A model generated the notes under the pieces. The model was given only the letters and a program-made list of their open reading frames with translations, had not been told where the DNA came from and ran no database searches. From NCBI GenBank assembly GCA_002421565.1, contig DIKC01000129.1:1-7041 (forward strand): a stretch of 7,041 nt of DNA. Direction: 5' to 3'. Source of the stretch: Desulfobulbaceae bacterium UBA5628 (GTDB taxonomy: Bacteria > Desulfobacterota > Desulfobulbia > Desulfobulbales > Desulfurivibrionaceae). A program made the position numbers and the translations under genes. This document shows, piece after piece, positions 1-6,164 of this stretch (its first letter is position 1; the number at the start of each line of letters is the position of its first letter).

Positions 1-1067
1 ACATTGCCCGGCCACTGATACGCCTGCATGGCAGCCAGGGCATCGGGGGCGAATTCCTTGTGGCCCAGCCCCTTATGGCTGTTTTCCGCCATAAAATCCC
101 GCACCAGCAGGGGAATATCGGCCAATCGCTCGCGCAGGGGCGGCATCGTGATCGGCACCACGTTGAGGCGATAAAAAAGATCGGCCCGGAAATTGCCCTG
201 CTCGATCTCCTCTTCCAGGTTTTTGTTGGTGGCGGCCAGAACCCGGACATTGACCCGGATGGTGCGGCTGCCTCCGACCCGCTCGAATTTCCGCTCCTGG
301 AGGATGCGAAGAATCTTGGCCTGGGTCTTGAGGCTCATGTCCCCGATTTCATCAAGGAAGAGAATACCGCCGTCGGCCAGGTCGAACTTGCCCCGGCGGC
401 TGGTGGTGGCGCCGGTAAAGGCCCCTTTTTCGTGACCGAAAAGCTCCGACTCGATCAGTTCCTCGGGGATGGCGGCGCAGTTGACCTCCACCATCGGCTT
501 GTGGGCCACCGGCGAGAGCCGATGAACGGTCTGGGCCGCCAACTCCTTGCCGGTGCCGTGCTCGCCCCGGATCAAAACCCAGGCCTCGGTAGGGGCGACC
601 AGGGTCAGTTGCTGCCGCAACTGCTCCATCACCGGACTTTCGCCGGTCAGGCTGTGGCGGGGAGTTTGCTGGCGGAAGATGAGATTTTCCTGCTCCAGGC
701 GGGCGACCCGCAGGGCGTTGTTAAGCGCCAGGATGACCTTGTCGTAGGAGAGGGGTTTTTCGATGAAATCATAGGCCCCCAGGCGGGTGGCCTGAACCGC
801 GGTTTCGATGGTGCCGTGGCCGGAAATCATGATCACCGGCAAGAGCGGCTGCTGCTCCTTGATCCGTTGCAGCACCTCCATCCCGTCCAACCCCGGCATC
901 CAGATATCGAGCAGCACCAGGTCCACCGCCTCCGCCTCCAGCAGGGCCAGCCCCTCTTCGCCGTTGCCGGCGGCCAGGGGGGCAAAACCCTCGTCGGCCA
1001 AAATCCCGGCCAGGGATTCCCGGATGCCCGCCTCGTCATCGATAATCAAAATCCGTTCCGCCGCCAT
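1..1067 (-). CDS. ntrX: NtrX-type sigma-54 response regulator (C-terminus cut off by window edge)
   Basis: This is a cytoplasmic NtrC-family response regulator that should accept phosphate from the NtrY kinase and activate sigma-54 promoters. The 355 visible residues show a receiver domain (about 1-120) with the acidic pair D10-D11, the phosphoacceptor D54 in LLDIWMPG, a serine in ISGHG and the lysine of EKP. An AAA+ domain follows, with Walker A GEHGTGKE (K174), an intact GAFTGA sigma-54 contact loop at 215-220, and Walker B ILFLDEIGD (D239, E240). The window ends at the WPGN motif, so the Fis-type DNA-binding domain, usually about 100 residues, lies outside. The ATG at 1065-1067 has a GGGGAG ribosome binding site six bases upstream. 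Identification as NtrX rather than another NtrC relative rests on the nearby ntrY and on overall resemblance. Unusually, a two-gene cassette separates it from ntrY. The protein itself looks intact where visible. Confidence 0.93.
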   Translation of the reverse strand, partial: MAAERILIIDDEAGIRESLAGILADEGFAPLAAGNGEEGLALLEAEAVDLVLLDIWMPGLDGMEVLQRIKEQQPLLPVIMISGHGTIETAVQATRLGAYDFIEKPLSYDKVILALNNALRVARLEQENLIFRQQTPRHSLTGESPVMEQLRQQLTLVAPTEAWVLIRGEHGTGKELAAQTVHRLSPVAHKPMVEVNCAAIPEELIESELFGHEKGAFTGATTSRRGKFDLADGGILFLDEIGDMSLKTQAKILRILQERKFERVGGSRTIRVNVRVLAATNKNLEEEIEQGNFRADLFYRLNVVPITMPPLRERLADIPLLVRDFMAENSHKGLGHKEFAPDALAAMQAYQWPGN

Positions 1068-1079
1068 CGCTTGCTCCCC
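1068..1079 (-). promoter_or_regulatory. Ribosome binding site of ntrX
   Basis: On the minus strand GGGGAG (1079-1074) precedes the ATG at 1067 with a six-base spacer. It supports this start. It also shows that ntrX keeps its own initiation signal despite the foreign cassette directly upstream. Confidence 0.65.
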
Positions 1080-1080
1080 G

Positions 1081-1096
1081 GAGTAATGTATAACTC
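1081..1096. repeat. Imperfect 16-base palindrome at the ParA-ntrX junction
   Basis: Read on the minus strand, GAGTTATACATTACTC has two seven-base arms around a central AC, with one mismatched pair. It covers the end of the ParA-like gene and stops just upstream of the ntrX ribosome binding site. It could be an operator or a trace of the insertion junction. The arms are short and chance is a real alternative. It is not followed by a T run, so it is not an intrinsic terminator. Confidence 0.35.
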
Positions 1097-2105
1097 ATGC
1101 TTGGCTCTGCCTTGACTCGAAGGTCTTTATCCGTTCGAGTACCTTCTCCGCCAACTGATGAAAGTCCCGGAATGCTTCCTGAACCGCCTGGGCATGACTA
1201 CCGATGGCACCGTCAGCAGATGTCAGATGAAAGATCGGTTTTCTCGCCTCCTGGCCCATTGGAATCAGGCTGCGATAGTGCTTCAGAGTGGCGAGACATT
1301 CCAGGTCCTCTACCGGTTTCGCCGCATGGGTGGAATCCTGCAGTACACTTTCGTGGTACACGCCGGGCATACGATTCACCCATTTATCATACGCCTTTAC
1401 CGGCCGGCTCAAACGGACACTGTGCTGTTGCACCAGATAACCGAGGGGAAGCATCTTTCCTCCGGGAAGGTCAAATTCTGGTTGATTCCAGTTGTCGATT
1501 CTTTTCTTCCACAAACCCCGCCATGATCTAAGCGTCGGCCCCAGATTTTTGAGGCCTTGCAATGAGAACAGGTCAGCCCCAAGGGGGATGACGACATAAT
1601 CGGATGCGATCAGCGCCGAACGGTTGATCGCGCCAAGGTTAGGCCCCACATCAATCATAATAAGGTCGGCTCCGACTTGTTCCGCCGCCATCTGAGCGAC
1701 CTGCCAGAAGGCGGTGAGGATGCGAAACGGCCGGTACAGGCTGGCATCGGCCATACTTGCCGGCCATGCCTCGGACAGGGTATCCTCGAAGGAGGCGAGA
1801 GCCACATCGCCGGGGATGACATAGAGGCCTTGCGCCGCTTTTTTCACGACCGGTTCCTTGATGTCGCCAACCTGGGTAAGAGGCTCGATGGCCCGATAGA
1901 TCGTGGAAGGATTGCCGTTTTCAGTCCATAAATCTTCCAGTTCCTCCTCATCAAGGTAGGCTGAAGTCAGGTTGGCCTGCGCATCCAGATCAACCGCCAC
2001 AATCGTGCGACCGAGCTCTGAAAACATCCACGCCAGGTGATACACTAAAGATGTTTTGCCGACCCCGCCCTTGTTGTTGAAAAACGTAAGCACCGGAACA
2101 CTCAT
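1095..2105 (-). CDS. ParA/MinD-family ATPase, orphan (no ParB partner)
   Basis: A 336-residue cytoplasmic P-loop ATPase of the ParA/Soj type. The deviant Walker A motif NKGGVGKTS spans 11-19, with signature lysine K12 and catalytic-loop lysine K17. A DLDAQANLT motif follows at 39-47, Walker B LIMIDVGPN at 148-156 (D152), and a ParA-like IPLGADLFSLQGL stretch at 173-185. Family members bind ATP as dimers, usually bind DNA non-specifically and position cargo or regulate partners. It is longer than compact Soj proteins of about 250 residues: the extra length lies between 190 and 260 (rich in Trp and basic residues) and in a helical, charged C-terminal tail. No N-terminal DNA-binding domain is present. 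The ATG overlaps the stop of the upstream AlbA_2 gene as ATGA, with a consensus ribosome binding site, so the two proteins are probably made together. Base composition is lower in GC than ntrY or ntrX. No ParB gene or obvious parS cluster is visible, so plasmid or chromosome partition is unlikely to be its only role; the actual role is unknown. Confidence 0.9.
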   Translation of the reverse strand: MSVPVLTFFNNKGGVGKTSLVYHLAWMFSELGRTIVAVDLDAQANLTSAYLDEEELEDLWTENGNPSTIYRAIEPLTQVGDIKEPVVKKAAQGLYVIPGDVALASFEDTLSEAWPASMADASLYRPFRILTAFWQVAQMAAEQVGADLIMIDVGPNLGAINRSALIASDYVVIPLGADLFSLQGLKNLGPTLRSWRGLWKKRIDNWNQPEFDLPGGKMLPLGYLVQQHSVRLSRPVKAYDKWVNRMPGVYHESVLQDSTHAAKPVEDLECLATLKHYRSLIPMGQEARKPIFHLTSADGAIGSHAQAVQEAFRDFHQLAEKVLERIKTFESRQSQA

Positions 2106-3307
2106 GGGCGCCTCCTGACCGTGGCCAGCACGGTCATTGGTTCAATTTGAAATTCAAGCTCTGGATTGCCGTTTTTTTTCAATTCCGCCCGCGCCGTCTG
2201 GATACCGACCCCGAAGCGCTGGACAAACCCCAAGACCTTCATAGCGTCGGCCAGGTTTGGGTTGCGATAATCGGTAATGCCTGGCCTCCCGAAATTTTCG
2301 CGAGTAACAATACCGAACGGCCCACCCGGATTGCTGATCTCGATACGATCATTGAACCAGGTGACGCGAACCGGGGCATTGGTACTCTCATATGTTCTGT
2401 GCATGATGGCATTACGGATCAATTGCTGCAGGGCGGCCTTAGGATAAGGTATAATTCTGGATTCACGATCTCCTGAAGTTATGTCGACACTGACACGGTT
2501 ATGGGCGTCCATTTTTTCATCGATTCGACGCAAGGTTTGCGCCAGGTCTCCGTCGATGAGGGCTTCATCCTGTATCGGATCGCTCAAATCCGTACCGTCA
2601 ATCCGCAGGAACTGAACATATGCCCCAGGAATCCAATCGGTTGGACTAATACCAATTACCAATATTCCCAATATCGTCGGTCTTGGATCGTCAACCAAGG
2701 CAATCATCCGGCACGCAGCCAGTTTCTGTTCATAGGAGCGCTCGTTGGCGGCAAGAATGTCGGACGCAAAAGCATTCGGAAGGTAGGCCTGTTCGAACAG
2801 AACGCGGCTGAGCGCGGAAAGATTGCAACTCGGCAAGGGTTGAACATCAAAAGGAACGTCCCGATAGCGACGTTTCTCATTTAAAATTCGTTCGTCCTGC
2901 TGGGTAGCAATACCACGCCGCGGGCCGATCCTGACCCAAATTCTTCCTTTGTAGCGGACTGGCGGGGTATCGGAGGGCTGTACCGTGACCACCGCTATCT
3001 CCACGCCTTTGAGGATACGCTTTTCCACAATCACGGAAGGCGGCGGAAGAATATTACCATCGGTTTTGATATCTGAGAGAGCACAAAGCAGTTCGTCCGT
3101 TATCGGCAGTCCCGACGGGCTGCCATCATCTTTTGCTCCGACAAACAGTATCCCCGGTTGACGATGGTCGGGCAAATCATTGGCAAAGGCGCAAACAGCC
3201 TGCCGGCCTTTGTCTGGCGCATCCCCTTTCCAGGATTCCTTGCGCTCGACAAGGTCCGATTCAATATCTTCAAGAAGAGCTTCAATTTTCTGATCAGAAT
3301 AGCTCAT
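2102..3307 (-). CDS. Schlafen AlbA_2 domain protein with C-terminal GHKL ATPase-like domain
   Basis: A 401-residue protein of the family often annotated as AlbA_2/'RecG-like' ATP-binding transcriptional regulator. The N-terminal AlbA_2 (Schlafen AAA_4-like) region covers about 12-135, with an acidic/basic ERKE cluster (E21, K23), an ILFVGAKDDG strand-turn at about 53-62, and the characteristic RIWVRIGPRRGIA segment at about 122-134. A middle linker domain follows. The C-terminus (about 275-380) matches the HATPase_c_4 type: LIRNAIMHRTY with the N-box N289, EISNPGG at 313-319, then RNPNLADAMKVLGF and QRFGVGI up to about 359. It ends soon after and lacks the winged helix that many relatives carry. 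An ATG at 3307 is preferred over a GTG two codons upstream because AAGGAG lies five bases before the ATG and overlaps the GTG. It sits 54 bases after ntrY and overlaps the ParA-like gene by four bases. Composition is nearer 50 % GC than the flanks, suggesting transfer. Relatives include regulators and candidate defence proteins; the activity (RNA/DNA binding, nuclease or ATPase switch) cannot be decided from sequence. Confidence 0.85.
   Translation of the reverse strand: MSYSDQKIEALLEDIESDLVERKESWKGDAPDKGRQAVCAFANDLPDHRQPGILFVGAKDDGSPSGLPITDELLCALSDIKTDGNILPPPSVIVEKRILKGVEIAVVTVQPSDTPPVRYKGRIWVRIGPRRGIATQQDERILNEKRRYRDVPFDVQPLPSCNLSALSRVLFEQAYLPNAFASDILAANERSYEQKLAACRMIALVDDPRPTILGILVIGISPTDWIPGAYVQFLRIDGTDLSDPIQDEALIDGDLAQTLRRIDEKMDAHNRVSVDITSGDRESRIIPYPKAALQQLIRNAIMHRTYESTNAPVRVTWFNDRIEISNPGGPFGIVTRENFGRPGITDYRNPNLADAMKVLGFVQRFGVGIQTARAELKKNGNPELEFQIEPMTVLATVRRRP
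2106..2116 (-). promoter_or_regulatory. Consensus ribosome binding site of the ParA-like gene, inside the AlbA_2 gene
   Basis: A perfect AGGAGG (2116-2111, minus strand) sits five bases before the ATG at 2105. It is read as two arginine codons in the last residues of the upstream protein. Together with the ATGA overlap it points to tight translational coupling with efficient re-initiation. Confidence 0.75.
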
Positions 3308-3318
3308 ATTCACTCCTT
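3308..3318 (-). promoter_or_regulatory. Ribosome binding site that decides the AlbA_2 gene start
   Basis: AAGGAG (3318-3313, minus strand) lies five bases before the ATG at 3307. The alternative GTG at 3313 would begin inside this motif, so the ATG is the better start. Confidence 0.7.
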
Positions 3319-3326
3319 GCTGCTAT

Positions 3327-3360
3327 CAAGTTGTCATCCATTCTCCATTCCTGCAACTTG
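3327..3360. repeat. Inverted repeat enclosing a tandem heptamer, upstream of the cassette
   Basis: CAAGTTG (3327-3333) and CAACTTG (3354-3360) form a perfect seven-base inverted repeat with a 20-base loop. Inside the loop, read on the minus strand, two adjacent heptamers AATGGAG and AATGGAT (3349-3336) form a tandem repeat. The element fills most of the 54-base gap between ntrY and the AlbA_2 gene and ends nine bases before the AAGGAG site. No T run follows, so an intrinsic terminator is unlikely; an operator or an RNA hairpin controlling the cassette is possible. I see no convincing -35/-10 promoter in the gap. Confidence 0.4.
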
Positions 3361-3361
3361 T

Positions 3362-5611
3362 TCAGGCACGATCTTCGGTCATCGGTAACTCTACCACAAA
3401 ACAGGCGCCGGTGGGCTCATGGTCGCGGACCCGGATGGCGCCGCCGTGGTCGGTGACCACCGTCCCGGCAATGGCCAGCCCCAGGCCGGTGCCGGATTTT
3501 TTGGTGGAAAAATAGGGCTCGAACAGGCGCAGTTTGTCCTCGTCCCGCACCCCCGGCCCGTTGTCCAGCACCATCATCAGCGCCATTTGCCGCTGTTGGT
3601 CATGCTCCAGGCGCACCTCGATCTCCCCGCCCTTTTCCGGCACCACCGCCACCGCGTTGTCGAGCAGGTTGATCAATACCCGCTTCAACTGCTTGGGGTC
3701 GAACAAAAACTCCGGCACCGGCCCGCCGCTCATCACCAGCTTCAGGTGGCGGTGGGCCTCCTGATAAAGGGCCAGCACCTCGCGGGTCATCTCCCCCAGG
3801 CTGCTCATGCTCTTGTGGAGGGCCGGCATCCGGGCAAAGCTGGAGAACTCGCCCACCAGCCGCTGCAACTCCTCCACCTGATTGATGATCGTCCGGGTGC
3901 AAAGATCAAAGACCTCCCCTTCTCCGGCCATTTTTTCGAGATATTTTTTCCGCAGCCGCTGGGCCGAGAGCTGGATCGGAGTAAGGGGATTTTTGACCTC
4001 GTGGGCGATGCGGCGGGCCACTTCCCGCCAGGCCGCCATCCGCTGGGCCTTTTCCAGTTCGGTAAGGTTGTCGAAGACCAGCACCACCCCCAATCCCTTG
4101 CCCTCGTCATCGAGCAGGCGGGTGAAGTTGATCCGCAGGGAAAAGGTCTCCTCGCCCACGGTCAGCCGCAGCGGCCGCTGGATGGAGTTCTTGCCCGATT
4201 CCCGCAGCTCCTGGAAAAAACCCTCCAGCACCTGGAGATGTTCCCGCCGCAGGATGGCCCGGTAATGACGGCCGACGATCTCCTGCCGCCGCACCTTGAG
4301 CAGTTCCTCGGCAAAACGGTTGATGGTGATCACCCGCCCCGCCTCATCCAGGGAAATGACCCCGGCCGCCACGTTCTGGAGGATGATTTCGGTGTAGCGC
4401 CGCCGATTGTCCATCTCCTGGGTGGTTTCCTCCAACTGCCGCCGGCCGCTCAACAGATCGCGGGTCATCCGGTTGAAGGAATCGACCAGGGTGCCCATTT
4501 CATCGCCAGAACTTTTCTCCAGGACAAAATCGAGCTCGCCCTCGGCCACCCGCCGGGTCGCCTCGGCCAGTTTCTGGATCGGGCCGGTCAGTCCCTCGGC
4601 CACGTAAAAACCGAACCACACCGCGCAAAAGACAATGAGCAAAGTAACCAACAGGAGGGTAACCAGAAAGCTGGTCTTGATCGGGTTTTTCAGCATCATC
4701 AACTGCCGATACCCTTCCAGTCCGGCGGAAATGGCCTCCATCCGCCGGAGCCGCTCCTGGGGTACCAGCCGAGAGACCACCAGCACCCCCTGCATGCTTC
4801 CGCCGTCTCGGTTAAGCCGCAGCGGCAGCAGTCCCCGCACCAGTTCCCCGGCCGCCACCGGCTGGATCACCTGCCCCGGCTCCCCGGCCAGAGCCAGGCG
4901 CAGGAGTTCGGCCGGCAGTTCCGGCACCGCCTGGGCCGCGATTTCCGGCTGATACACCGCGGCCAGCAGGCTCCGTTCCTCGCTGACGATCTCCAGGGCG
5001 GCAAGACCGTAACCGGCCCGCATGTCCCGCAAAAAAACATCGAGGGCGGTAGCGGTCATCACCCGATAATGCTCCGATTGGAGGCGGCCGGCAATGGCCT
5101 CGCCCTCCCGGCCGACCCCGGCCTGAGCCTCCTGGTAAACCTCCCGGGCAATGGTCAGCGATTCCTCCAGGGATTGCTCGACGTTGATGTTGAACCAGTA
5201 ATCCATGCTGGTGGAGATGAATTGCAGGGACATCAGAAAAAGCAGGGCGGTGGGAATCAGCGACAAAGAGACAAAGGCGATCACCAGCTTGGTGCGCAGG
5301 CGAGTGCCGAGTACCCGGCGGCGGCGCTCGAAGACCAGTTGGGCCAGGTTGCGCAGCACCAGAAAGATCACCACCAGCAGCAGCAGGACGTTGATGTTGA
5401 TCATGATGAAGATCAGGAGATTGCCGGTGATCGGCAGGGGCACTTCCCCCAGATCGAAGAGACGGGTTTCGAGATAGGTAAGGAGGACGAAAAGGGCGAG
5501 ACAACCGCCGATGATCAGCCGCAACCGCCGCCGACGGCGCTGGCGCTCCTCGCGAACGATCTCCTCGCGGATAGCCGCCTCCCGGCGTTGCTGTTCAGTA
5601 GCGGAATTCAA
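3362..5611 (-). CDS. ntrY: NtrY-type transmembrane sensor histidine kinase
   Basis: A 749-residue inner-membrane kinase expected to phosphorylate NtrX. After a very basic N-terminus come three hydrophobic segments (about 32-49, 64-87, 109-129), then an extracytoplasmic sensor region (about 130-309) and a fourth membrane segment (about 314-336). The cytoplasmic part has a HAMP linker (about 337-389), a PAS domain starting near 414 (VAAGVISLDEAG), the HisKA phosphoacceptor motif RRIAHEVKNPLTPIQL with H537, and an HATPase domain: N-box LINLLDNA (N648, N652), G1 DNGPG (683-687), FEPYFSTK, and G2 GTGLGLA (707-713). All catalytic motifs are intact. Two TTG starts are possible. The one at 5611 is chosen because GGAG lies ten bases upstream; the one at 5632 adds seven residues and has a poorer site. 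Either way the gene overlaps the end of the DUF4390 gene, implying coupling. The layout of several membrane helices, HAMP, PAS and kinase is typical of NtrY. The stimulus is unknown, although the family is linked to nitrogen metabolism, redox and envelope signals. Confidence 0.92.
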   Translation of the reverse strand: MNSATEQQRREAAIREEIVREERQRRRRRLRLIIGGCLALFVLLTYLETRLFDLGEVPLPITGNLLIFIMININVLLLLVVIFLVLRNLAQLVFERRRRVLGTRLRTKLVIAFVSLSLIPTALLFLMSLQFISTSMDYWFNINVEQSLEESLTIAREVYQEAQAGVGREGEAIAGRLQSEHYRVMTATALDVFLRDMRAGYGLAALEIVSEERSLLAAVYQPEIAAQAVPELPAELLRLALAGEPGQVIQPVAAGELVRGLLPLRLNRDGGSMQGVLVVSRLVPQERLRRMEAISAGLEGYRQLMMLKNPIKTSFLVTLLLVTLLIVFCAVWFGFYVAEGLTGPIQKLAEATRRVAEGELDFVLEKSSGDEMGTLVDSFNRMTRDLLSGRRQLEETTQEMDNRRRYTEIILQNVAAGVISLDEAGRVITINRFAEELLKVRRQEIVGRHYRAILRREHLQVLEGFFQELRESGKNSIQRPLRLTVGEETFSLRINFTRLLDDEGKGLGVVLVFDNLTELEKAQRMAAWREVARRIAHEVKNPLTPIQLSAQRLRKKYLEKMAGEGEVFDLCTRTIINQVEELQRLVGEFSSFARMPALHKSMSSLGEMTREVLALYQEAHRHLKLVMSGGPVPEFLFDPKQLKRVLINLLDNAVAVVPEKGGEIEVRLEHDQQRQMALMMVLDNGPGVRDEDKLRLFEPYFSTKKSGTGLGLAIAGTVVTDHGGAIRVRDHEPTGACFVVELPMTEDRA

Positions 5612-6164
5612 CCTGATGCCACTCCGTTTCAAAATTCCACAGCCGCCAGAACGGCACGATCCGGTGGAAGGATAAGGGCAGGGTCTTTTCGCTCAGCCGG
5701 GCCTTGATCCGCAGGGTGTAACGTTGCTCCGGGGCCAGGGCGGCAAGCGGCGCCACCGCCAGGCCGTTGACCCGAACCATCAACCGGCGGGCCTCGTCCA
5801 GGCTCTTGACCGTGAAAACCCGGTCGTTCTTCTCGCCGTGGGTCACCCGGTATTCCTCCTTGAGGCTGTCATAAACCAGGAGATGCTCAAAGGAAAAATC
5901 GGCGATCTTCTGGTCGGGCCAACCGGTGCGCCGGCGATGGAGCTCGACAAAAAAAGTGAAGGTCACCGGCAGACCGTTTCTGACCGCTTCTTCCATCTCC
6001 GGGACAAAGGCGTTTTTGACCTGGCCGTAGAGAAGCACCTCGCTGGCGGAATTGGTCACCACCAACTGCTCGATCATGGCCGGCTCGGCGGCCCGCCCCG
6101 GACCGGCCAGGGCCGCTGAAACAAGCAGCGCCAACACCAGATATTTAAAACCGAACTTAATCAC
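5595..6164 (-). CDS. DUF4390 exported protein of unknown function
   Basis: A 189-residue protein predicted to be exported. The first 26 residues form a classical signal peptide: MIKFGFKY, a hydrophobic core [12 protein letters not shown], and a likely cleavage site after GRAA. No lipobox cysteine is present, so it should be soluble in the periplasm or peripherally bound. The mature part resembles DUF4390: a [16 protein letters not shown] strand, [14 protein letters not shown], an [13 protein letters not shown] helix, and a C-terminal [19 protein letters not shown]. The GTG at 6164 is chosen because it overlaps the hflX stop as GTGA and gives a clean signal peptide; a TTG at 6191 would add nine residues but lacks a good ribosome binding site. 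The gene overlaps ntrY downstream. From general knowledge, DUF4390 genes often precede ntrY in proteobacteria, so an accessory role for the NtrY sensor domain is a reasonable inference. No biochemical function is known to me. Confidence 0.85.

Follow-up and report, generated by a model that had tools for sequence, protein, structure and literature searches.

A two-gene cassette of a predicted Schlafen-type RNase and its ParA partner at the ntrY–ntrX junction of a Desulfobulbaceae bacterium

The window analysed here, which is the whole 7,041-nucleotide contig DIKC01000129.1 (C166) of Desulfobulbaceae bacterium UBA5628, comes from a genome that is fragmentary, with 197 contigs and a completeness of 60.7%, and its minus-strand gene order is hflX, a DUF4390 gene, ntrY, an AlbA_2/GHKL gene, a parA-like gene and ntrX, as shown in Table 1. 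The two genes between ntrY and ntrX, referred to below as the cassette or the pair, are both complete and overlap by 4 bp, the first starting at GTG 3313 (403 residues) or, more likely, at ATG 3307 (401 residues). They are coupled, as an earlier note on this DNA had proposed, and the facing ends of their neighbours are undamaged as it had also said, ntrY having its own stop codon and ntrX an intact 5′ end. The lower guanine-plus-cytosine (GC) content that it had read from the letters was borne out, with values of 0.521 for the AlbA gene and 0.549 for the ParA gene compared with 0.590–0.630 in ntrX, ntrY, the DUF4390 gene and hflX, and with third-codon-position GC values of 0.537 and 0.623 compared with 0.764–0.814 in the same four genes. 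That metagenome assembly joined the cassette to ntrYX in error might be suspected from the fragmentary state of the source genome and from the fact that no second member of its genus turned up in the searches; it is hardly credible given the intact host genes at the junctions, the clean reading order, and the record of both proteins on two contigs, the larger of which has a recorded length of 12,320 bases.

Table 1. Features of the window at and around the ntrY–ntrX junction.
Feature	Position	Strand	Basis or remark
ntrX response regulator	3..1067	minus	downstream host gene; receiver and sigma-54 domain; 5′ end intact, 3′ part beyond contig
27-bp spacer, ParA stop to ntrX ATG; right boundary	1068..1094	minus	by coordinates
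ParA-type ATPase gene, 336 residues	1095..2105	minus	AAA_31 match, Walker residues, fold match
AlbA_2 (Schlafen) and GHKL gene, predicted nucleotide-gated RNase	2102..3313	minus	Pfam matches, triad conservation, fold matches
GHKL ATP-binding core (HATPase_c_4), residues 313–397	2123..2377	minus	Pfam match and conserved motif residues
Schlafen-type active-site stretch, residues 18–62 (E18, E23, D62; 403-residue numbering)	3128..3262	minus	conservation, triad spacing
54-bp spacer, ntrY stop to AlbA ATG 3307; left boundary	3308..3361	minus	no hmaA relic detected
ntrY sensor kinase	3362..5632	minus	complete, upstream host gene; HAMP, PAS, HisKA, HATPase_c, NtrY_N; stop 3362–3364

In the ntrY search, each of the 38 genomes covered yielded a kinase match, with only weaker or broken relatives in a few (G004, G007, G012 and G018), and 29 relatives with the locus and ntrY identities of 59–71% (20 of the same family, nine of the same order) were used for the empty-site comparison. 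Direct succession from ntrY to ntrX, with a gap of 0–328 bp, was observed in 25 of the 29, and another gene follows ntrY in the other four (L113, L115, L135 and L137), so that the supposed normal adjacency of ntrY and ntrX holds for most of these relatives and fails in four. The cassette is absent from the site in every one of the 29, as judged by eye over about 1.5 kb in those four. The earlier view of a compact unit of foreign composition sitting in the junction, with neither gene damaged, is supported. The ParA family (E up to 1e-30) was detected in one of 27 genomes of the family, which is the window's own, and the cassette likely arrived by horizontal transfer. No end word common to both boundaries was found beyond chance. 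A transposon or integrative element was considered and rejected, as the cassette has no recombinase, no further long gene, and no inverted or direct end repeats or target duplication beyond chance. The junction is itself a variable place, as seen from L113 and L115, which belong to the three relatives nearest in ntrY and where a receiver-like GGDEF/EAL gene, recognized by eye, follows ntrY in place of ntrX. Several ntrY–ntrX gaps in one related genus, among those of L118, L119, L121, L122, L124–L132 and L140, contain repeats such as GAAACGGCAGCAGT, and the same gaps hold a common GGCATGGTATA-like element; this may be a promoter of ntrX, and it is absent from the window.

The first protein of the cassette is predicted from its sequence to be a Schlafen-type RNase. 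It matches Pfam SLFN_AlbA_2 (PF04326) at E 9e-15 with 55.7 bits, above the curated cut-off of 25.3, and HATPase_c_4 at E 1.7e-17. The Glu-Glu-Asp triad of the Schlafen RNases is present as E18, E23 and D62, conserved, with the window included, in 80 of the 80 sequences with a residue there, in 81 of 83 and in 76 of 83, respectively, and its spacing of +5/+39 compares with +5/+38 in rSLFN13, whose active-site residues are given as E205/E210/D248 in the available part of PMC5862951. The GHKL motif residues N301 (just ahead of residues 313–397), D322, P329, G330, G368 and G370 were each found in all 83 sequences. The VIA structural table (50 rows) consists mostly of kinase domains, and the AlbA_2-type folds among the matches listed are 3LMM, 2KYY, the SAMD9 tRNase domain (two entries) and SLFN11. 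Because the GHKL match reaches residue 397 of 403, there is no room for a C-terminal helix-turn-helix (HTH) or winged HTH (wHTH), and the latter, a mark of the Schlafen-kinase-wHTH effectors discussed below, is lacking.

The second protein matches AAA_31 at E 4.8e-30, and its Walker residues K12, G14, K17, D41 and D152 are invariant among 42 chosen sequences. With the deviant Walker A motif KGGVGKT and an overall fold that matches 3PG5 first and then Soj/ParA, it resembles the ParA/Soj partition ATPases, but it is longer than Soj (336 residues vs about 250) and its partner is a Schlafen gene and not ParB; no ParB gene adjoins it in the window, where the next gene is ntrX (parS was not searched for). 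The best structural matches of the two proteins, DIP2311 (3LMM) for the first and DIP2308 (3PG5) for the second, are both from Corynebacterium diphtheriae, are solved structures without a named function at 18–25% identity, and have locus tags three apart, not adjacent by number. With PADLOC 2.0.0, the first protein gave partial matches only (Ago SIR2-PNTD and pAgo models) and the second matched only an N-terminal stretch of PDC-M28B, no single system matching both proteins over their full length. The Argonaute SIR2-PNTD models were matched by residues 143–388, comprising the middle and GHKL part, at E 4e-16.

The two genes travel as a unit. In a genome scan of which the best 80 of 187 confirmed loci, with identities of 58% or more, were kept, the carriers are Desulfobacterales, Nitrospinota, Elusimicrobiota, Acidobacteria, Planctomycetota and Verrucomicrobia, with Nitrospira, Synergistota, Spirochaetes, Gammaproteobacteria and others as further carriers. 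A ParA gene, or at least part of one, stands directly downstream of the AlbA gene in 76 of the 80, and among the 69 pairs scored with a simple gene caller the overlap is exactly 4 bp in 44 and 25 bp in 20, the latter probably reflecting start-codon choices. In a phylum survey of 395 genomes, AlbA relatives (E up to 1e-60) were detected in 12 and ParA relatives in 11; both families occur together in ten genomes, are adjacent in all ten (Fisher p 3.2e-17), and each of the 11 ParA genes, the window's included, has an AlbA-type partner. The eleventh is preceded by a short AlbA_2/GHKL version (L182:643-1450), split over two frames and without the middle region. The distances within the two families are correlated (Mantel r 0.845, reached in 0 of 5000 permutations; 73 sequences, window included). 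This ParA is the standing partner of the AlbA_2/GHKL clade; the description of it as an orphan in the earlier note is contradicted by these counts, and the note's own proviso that the two genes might rarely occur together fails because they do occur together elsewhere. In addition, there are matches in 77 plasmid and 18 phage records, none of them reaching 60% identity; IMG/VR gave no match with a single protein, and with an alignment gave 19 loci, one of which, L142, has both genes of the pair (47% and 57%). On that putative viral contig of 37 kb, a DNA methyltransferase gene stands directly before the pair (L142:4887-8147) and a tail-terminator-like gene lies upstream.

The overlapping genes, their constant order, their solitary spread across phyla and their persistence after surrounding Hma genes decayed (see below) would suit a toxin–antitoxin or addiction unit, in which ParA is the required antitoxin and the pair is maintained selfishly, not for defence. 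Such a unit is quite improbable, since AlbA stands without ParA, with E18, E23 and D62 all kept, in four of the 80 loci (L041, L066, L101 and L108), so that the putative toxin does occur intact without its partner and ParA is no strict antitoxin. Nor was ParA seen beside AlbA in L163 and L164 (one genus) and L171 (a second AlbA gene of G435) of the phylum survey, and L087 and L090 have an interrupted ParA beside an open AlbA, unless these are sequencing errors. At L108, a different small gene, possibly an alternative partner, lies right after AlbA. Copies in which one or both genes are interrupted were noticed at L004, L037, L038, L087, L090 and L170, as might be seen if the pair had arrived by chance as a passenger and were falling into decay; for the window this is highly improbable, both genes being open there with their conserved motifs kept.

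The pair was repeatedly found embedded in Hma (= BR) and bacteriophage exclusion (BREX) operons, PADLOC naming the flanking genes as HmaA, HmaB, HmaC, BrxC and PglX. PADLOC includes models of Hma-embedded candidates. The pair lies directly behind hmaA in L036, L042, L049, L067, L076, L096 and L105 and directly behind brxC in L046, L060, L086 and L089, i.e. in 11 of the 80 loci, some of these genes being partial, and HmaB or PglX directly follows it in L036, L049, L076, L105, L046, L086 and L089. Host-gene ends were matched within 400 bp upstream in 15 of 89 loci and within 450 bp downstream in ten of 86, vs none of 150 pieces more than 4 kb away, a contrast that is inflated because the queries stem from these loci and nine of the 15 upstream hits are to the own gene. 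In the phylum survey, which is more independent, a host-gene end was matched in three of the nine loci tested (L161, L165 and L169), and HmaB or HmaA/HmaB was found near L168 and L171; HmaA matches were found in one of 24 loci of distant AlbA_2/GHKL paralogues (short flanks) and in none of the 29 ntrY loci. In G435, the second AlbA gene (48%, L171) has no ParA and is flanked by an HmaA-like and an HmaB-like gene, and a full pair is present at L033/L162. In the window's own genome, a helicase (L183, C107:5743-7506) is 34% identical to HmaA residues 94–676 (E 1e-57), the candidates for it being HmaA, DrmD, BrxH or a housekeeping helicase.

Several close relatives of the window cassette (77–80% identical) have no intact Hma gene adjoining and retain broken ends of such genes. 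An hmaA tail lies upstream in L032 (E 4e-24 to the HmaA of L036) and L033 (E 3e-10); likeness at the DNA level to these two tails was observed in L004 and L035 (scores of 42–58 vs at most 25 in shuffles) and L161 (38 vs 25); an hmaB head lies downstream in L161 (29 residues, E 2e-12) and, by eye, in L033; and both ends are retained in L077 (58 and 16 residues) and L169. By comparison, L036 (76% identical) stands within an intact Hma operon, no relic was seen in L034 and L166, and no hmaA or hmaB relic was found beside the cassette of the window. Because relatives keep these ends, the clade would once have been housed in Hma operons, which the pair outlived or left, and the broken ends may be read as scars of that departure. 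In L032, L043 and L067, the cassette is flanked on either side by pieces of a single hmaA or hmaB gene, as if cassettes had been exchanged or stacked at the slot by recombination between host-gene ends. The 54-bp spacer of the window contains a 7-base inverted repeat, CAAGTTG / CAACTTG. It also weakly resembles the start of AlbA in L033 (5 of 500 shuffles) and in L032 (10 of 500), a post hoc likeness that was not used.

For the defence-enrichment test, 16 loci in or near Hma/BREX were excluded from both sets beforehand, leaving 105 adjacent proteins (one of more than 1300 residues dropped) and 96 distant ones (those of at most 600 residues among 108), searched with PADLOC at E 1e-20. No defence excess was found beside the free-standing copies, with ten families in the adjacent set (one protein each) vs 12 in the distant set (one of them in two proteins), and this weighs against a simple defence-island story. 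Pfam on the adjacent proteins gave 133 families, none in more than four proteins, and the 25 listed are mostly housekeeping or broad. The link to defence suggested earlier is thus upheld by the embedding in Hma and BREX operons and not by the free-standing flanks; because the latter have no such excess, the pair is bimodal, lying either within Hma/BREX or alone among ordinary genes as in the window. A regulatory or stress unit, in which the AlbA_2/GHKL protein is an ATP-dependent nucleic-acid-binding regulator that ParA positions or times and which the ntrYX site ties to that signalling pathway, would fit these varied, mostly housekeeping surroundings, the naming of some close homologues as transcriptional regulators by their source, and the absence of D62 in seven of 83 sequences. 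It is nevertheless unlikely, as E18 and E23 are nearly invariant, no space is left for a C-terminal HTH, carriage is patchy (one of 27 and 12 of 395 genomes), embedding in Hma and BREX recurs, and beyond ParA, Hma/BREX genes and two small groups of related hosts that have a site in common (L102/L104/L111 and L088/L099), only broad superfamilies recur as neighbours.

Schlafen-kinase-wHTH RNases are described in the available part of PMC12839542 (2026) as auxiliary effectors in BREX and BR loci of at least 1017 taxa. Like the clade of the window protein, these combine a Schlafen domain with GHKL and are located within or next to the core loci of BREX and Hma/BR; unlike them, the window protein has no room for the C-terminal wHTH and many copies, that of the window among them, are free-standing, linkage to BREX or BR core genes being found in some relatives and not in the window. 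The word ParA is absent from the main text of that article, the only part searched, so the statement that no named system has this composition stands for the ParA partner in so far as that main text goes and does not stand for the Schlafen-kinase proteins, which are published. Among the papers listed in the literature searches, none was found to mention the partnership with ParA, the spread of free-standing copies, the relics read as scars or the ntrYX site, Schlafen-kinase effectors in BREX/BR being already known; either of two preprints, Payne 2024 on embedded defences and Taboada 2025 on bacterial Schlafens, may already name the pair. The tRNA anticodon nucleases PrrC and RloC are, from the available parts of PMC2610378 and PMC3874168, alike in being nucleotide-controlled tRNases linked to a restriction-modification locus, and the hsdR relic adjoining rloC of Geobacillus kaustophilus (PMC2610378) parallels the hmaA relics beside relatives of the cassette; they differ in having an ABC-type ATPase and another nuclease, so that the likeness is one of working plan and not of family. 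PARIS (ariA-ariB) of Salmonella, in the available part of PMC11341690, is likewise a two-gene unit inside a BREX locus, and identity with it was rejected, as neither window protein gave such a PADLOC match at E up to 1 and no TOPRIM was found in Pfam.

The cassette is somewhat probably a transferable module of a nucleotide-gated Schlafen-type RNase and a ParA that works like PrrC/RloC as a mobile anti-phage system. The RNase would be held silent and then released through its own GHKL ATP-binding domain, which would bind ATP, and through the partner ATPase, which would bind DNA as an ATP dimer. Such DNA-bound dimers would detect when the chromosome or a resident modification system is disturbed and pass this on to the Schlafen protein, which, once released, would cut tRNA or rRNA, so that phage production stops. 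Beside BrxC/PglX or HmaA/HmaB, the protein would stay silent while the system is whole and be freed once a phage inhibits it, a placement like that of PrrC in its restriction operon, and the free-standing form would have to sense something else, as RloC senses DNA breaks, with ParA as the obvious candidate. More tentatively, the two proteins may form an immune system in which ParA, carried on the nucleoid, alerts a Schlafen tRNase when phages attack the DNA, and the bare pair may enter and leave Hma and BREX operons on pieces of their genes before settling in housekeeping operons, ntrYX being one.

In the window, a consensus scan of positions 1000–3500 found no promoter-like site (2.1 expected) and three terminator-like sites (2.5 expected), the latter not above chance, and because of this we infer that the cassette is co-transcribed with ntrYX, the pair being read with these genes and ntrX through the pair. 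No Rfam match at the gathering score was found, and an RNA element was set aside. If the proposed function is true, many "RecG-like ATP-binding proteins" and "orphan ParAs" would gain a joint function, a DNA-riding ATPase would join the known ways of keeping a tRNase in check, and the hmaA and hmaB ends would be a readable record of small defence modules changing operons without a visible transposase, while in this bacterium the expression of ntrX would pass through a defence cassette.

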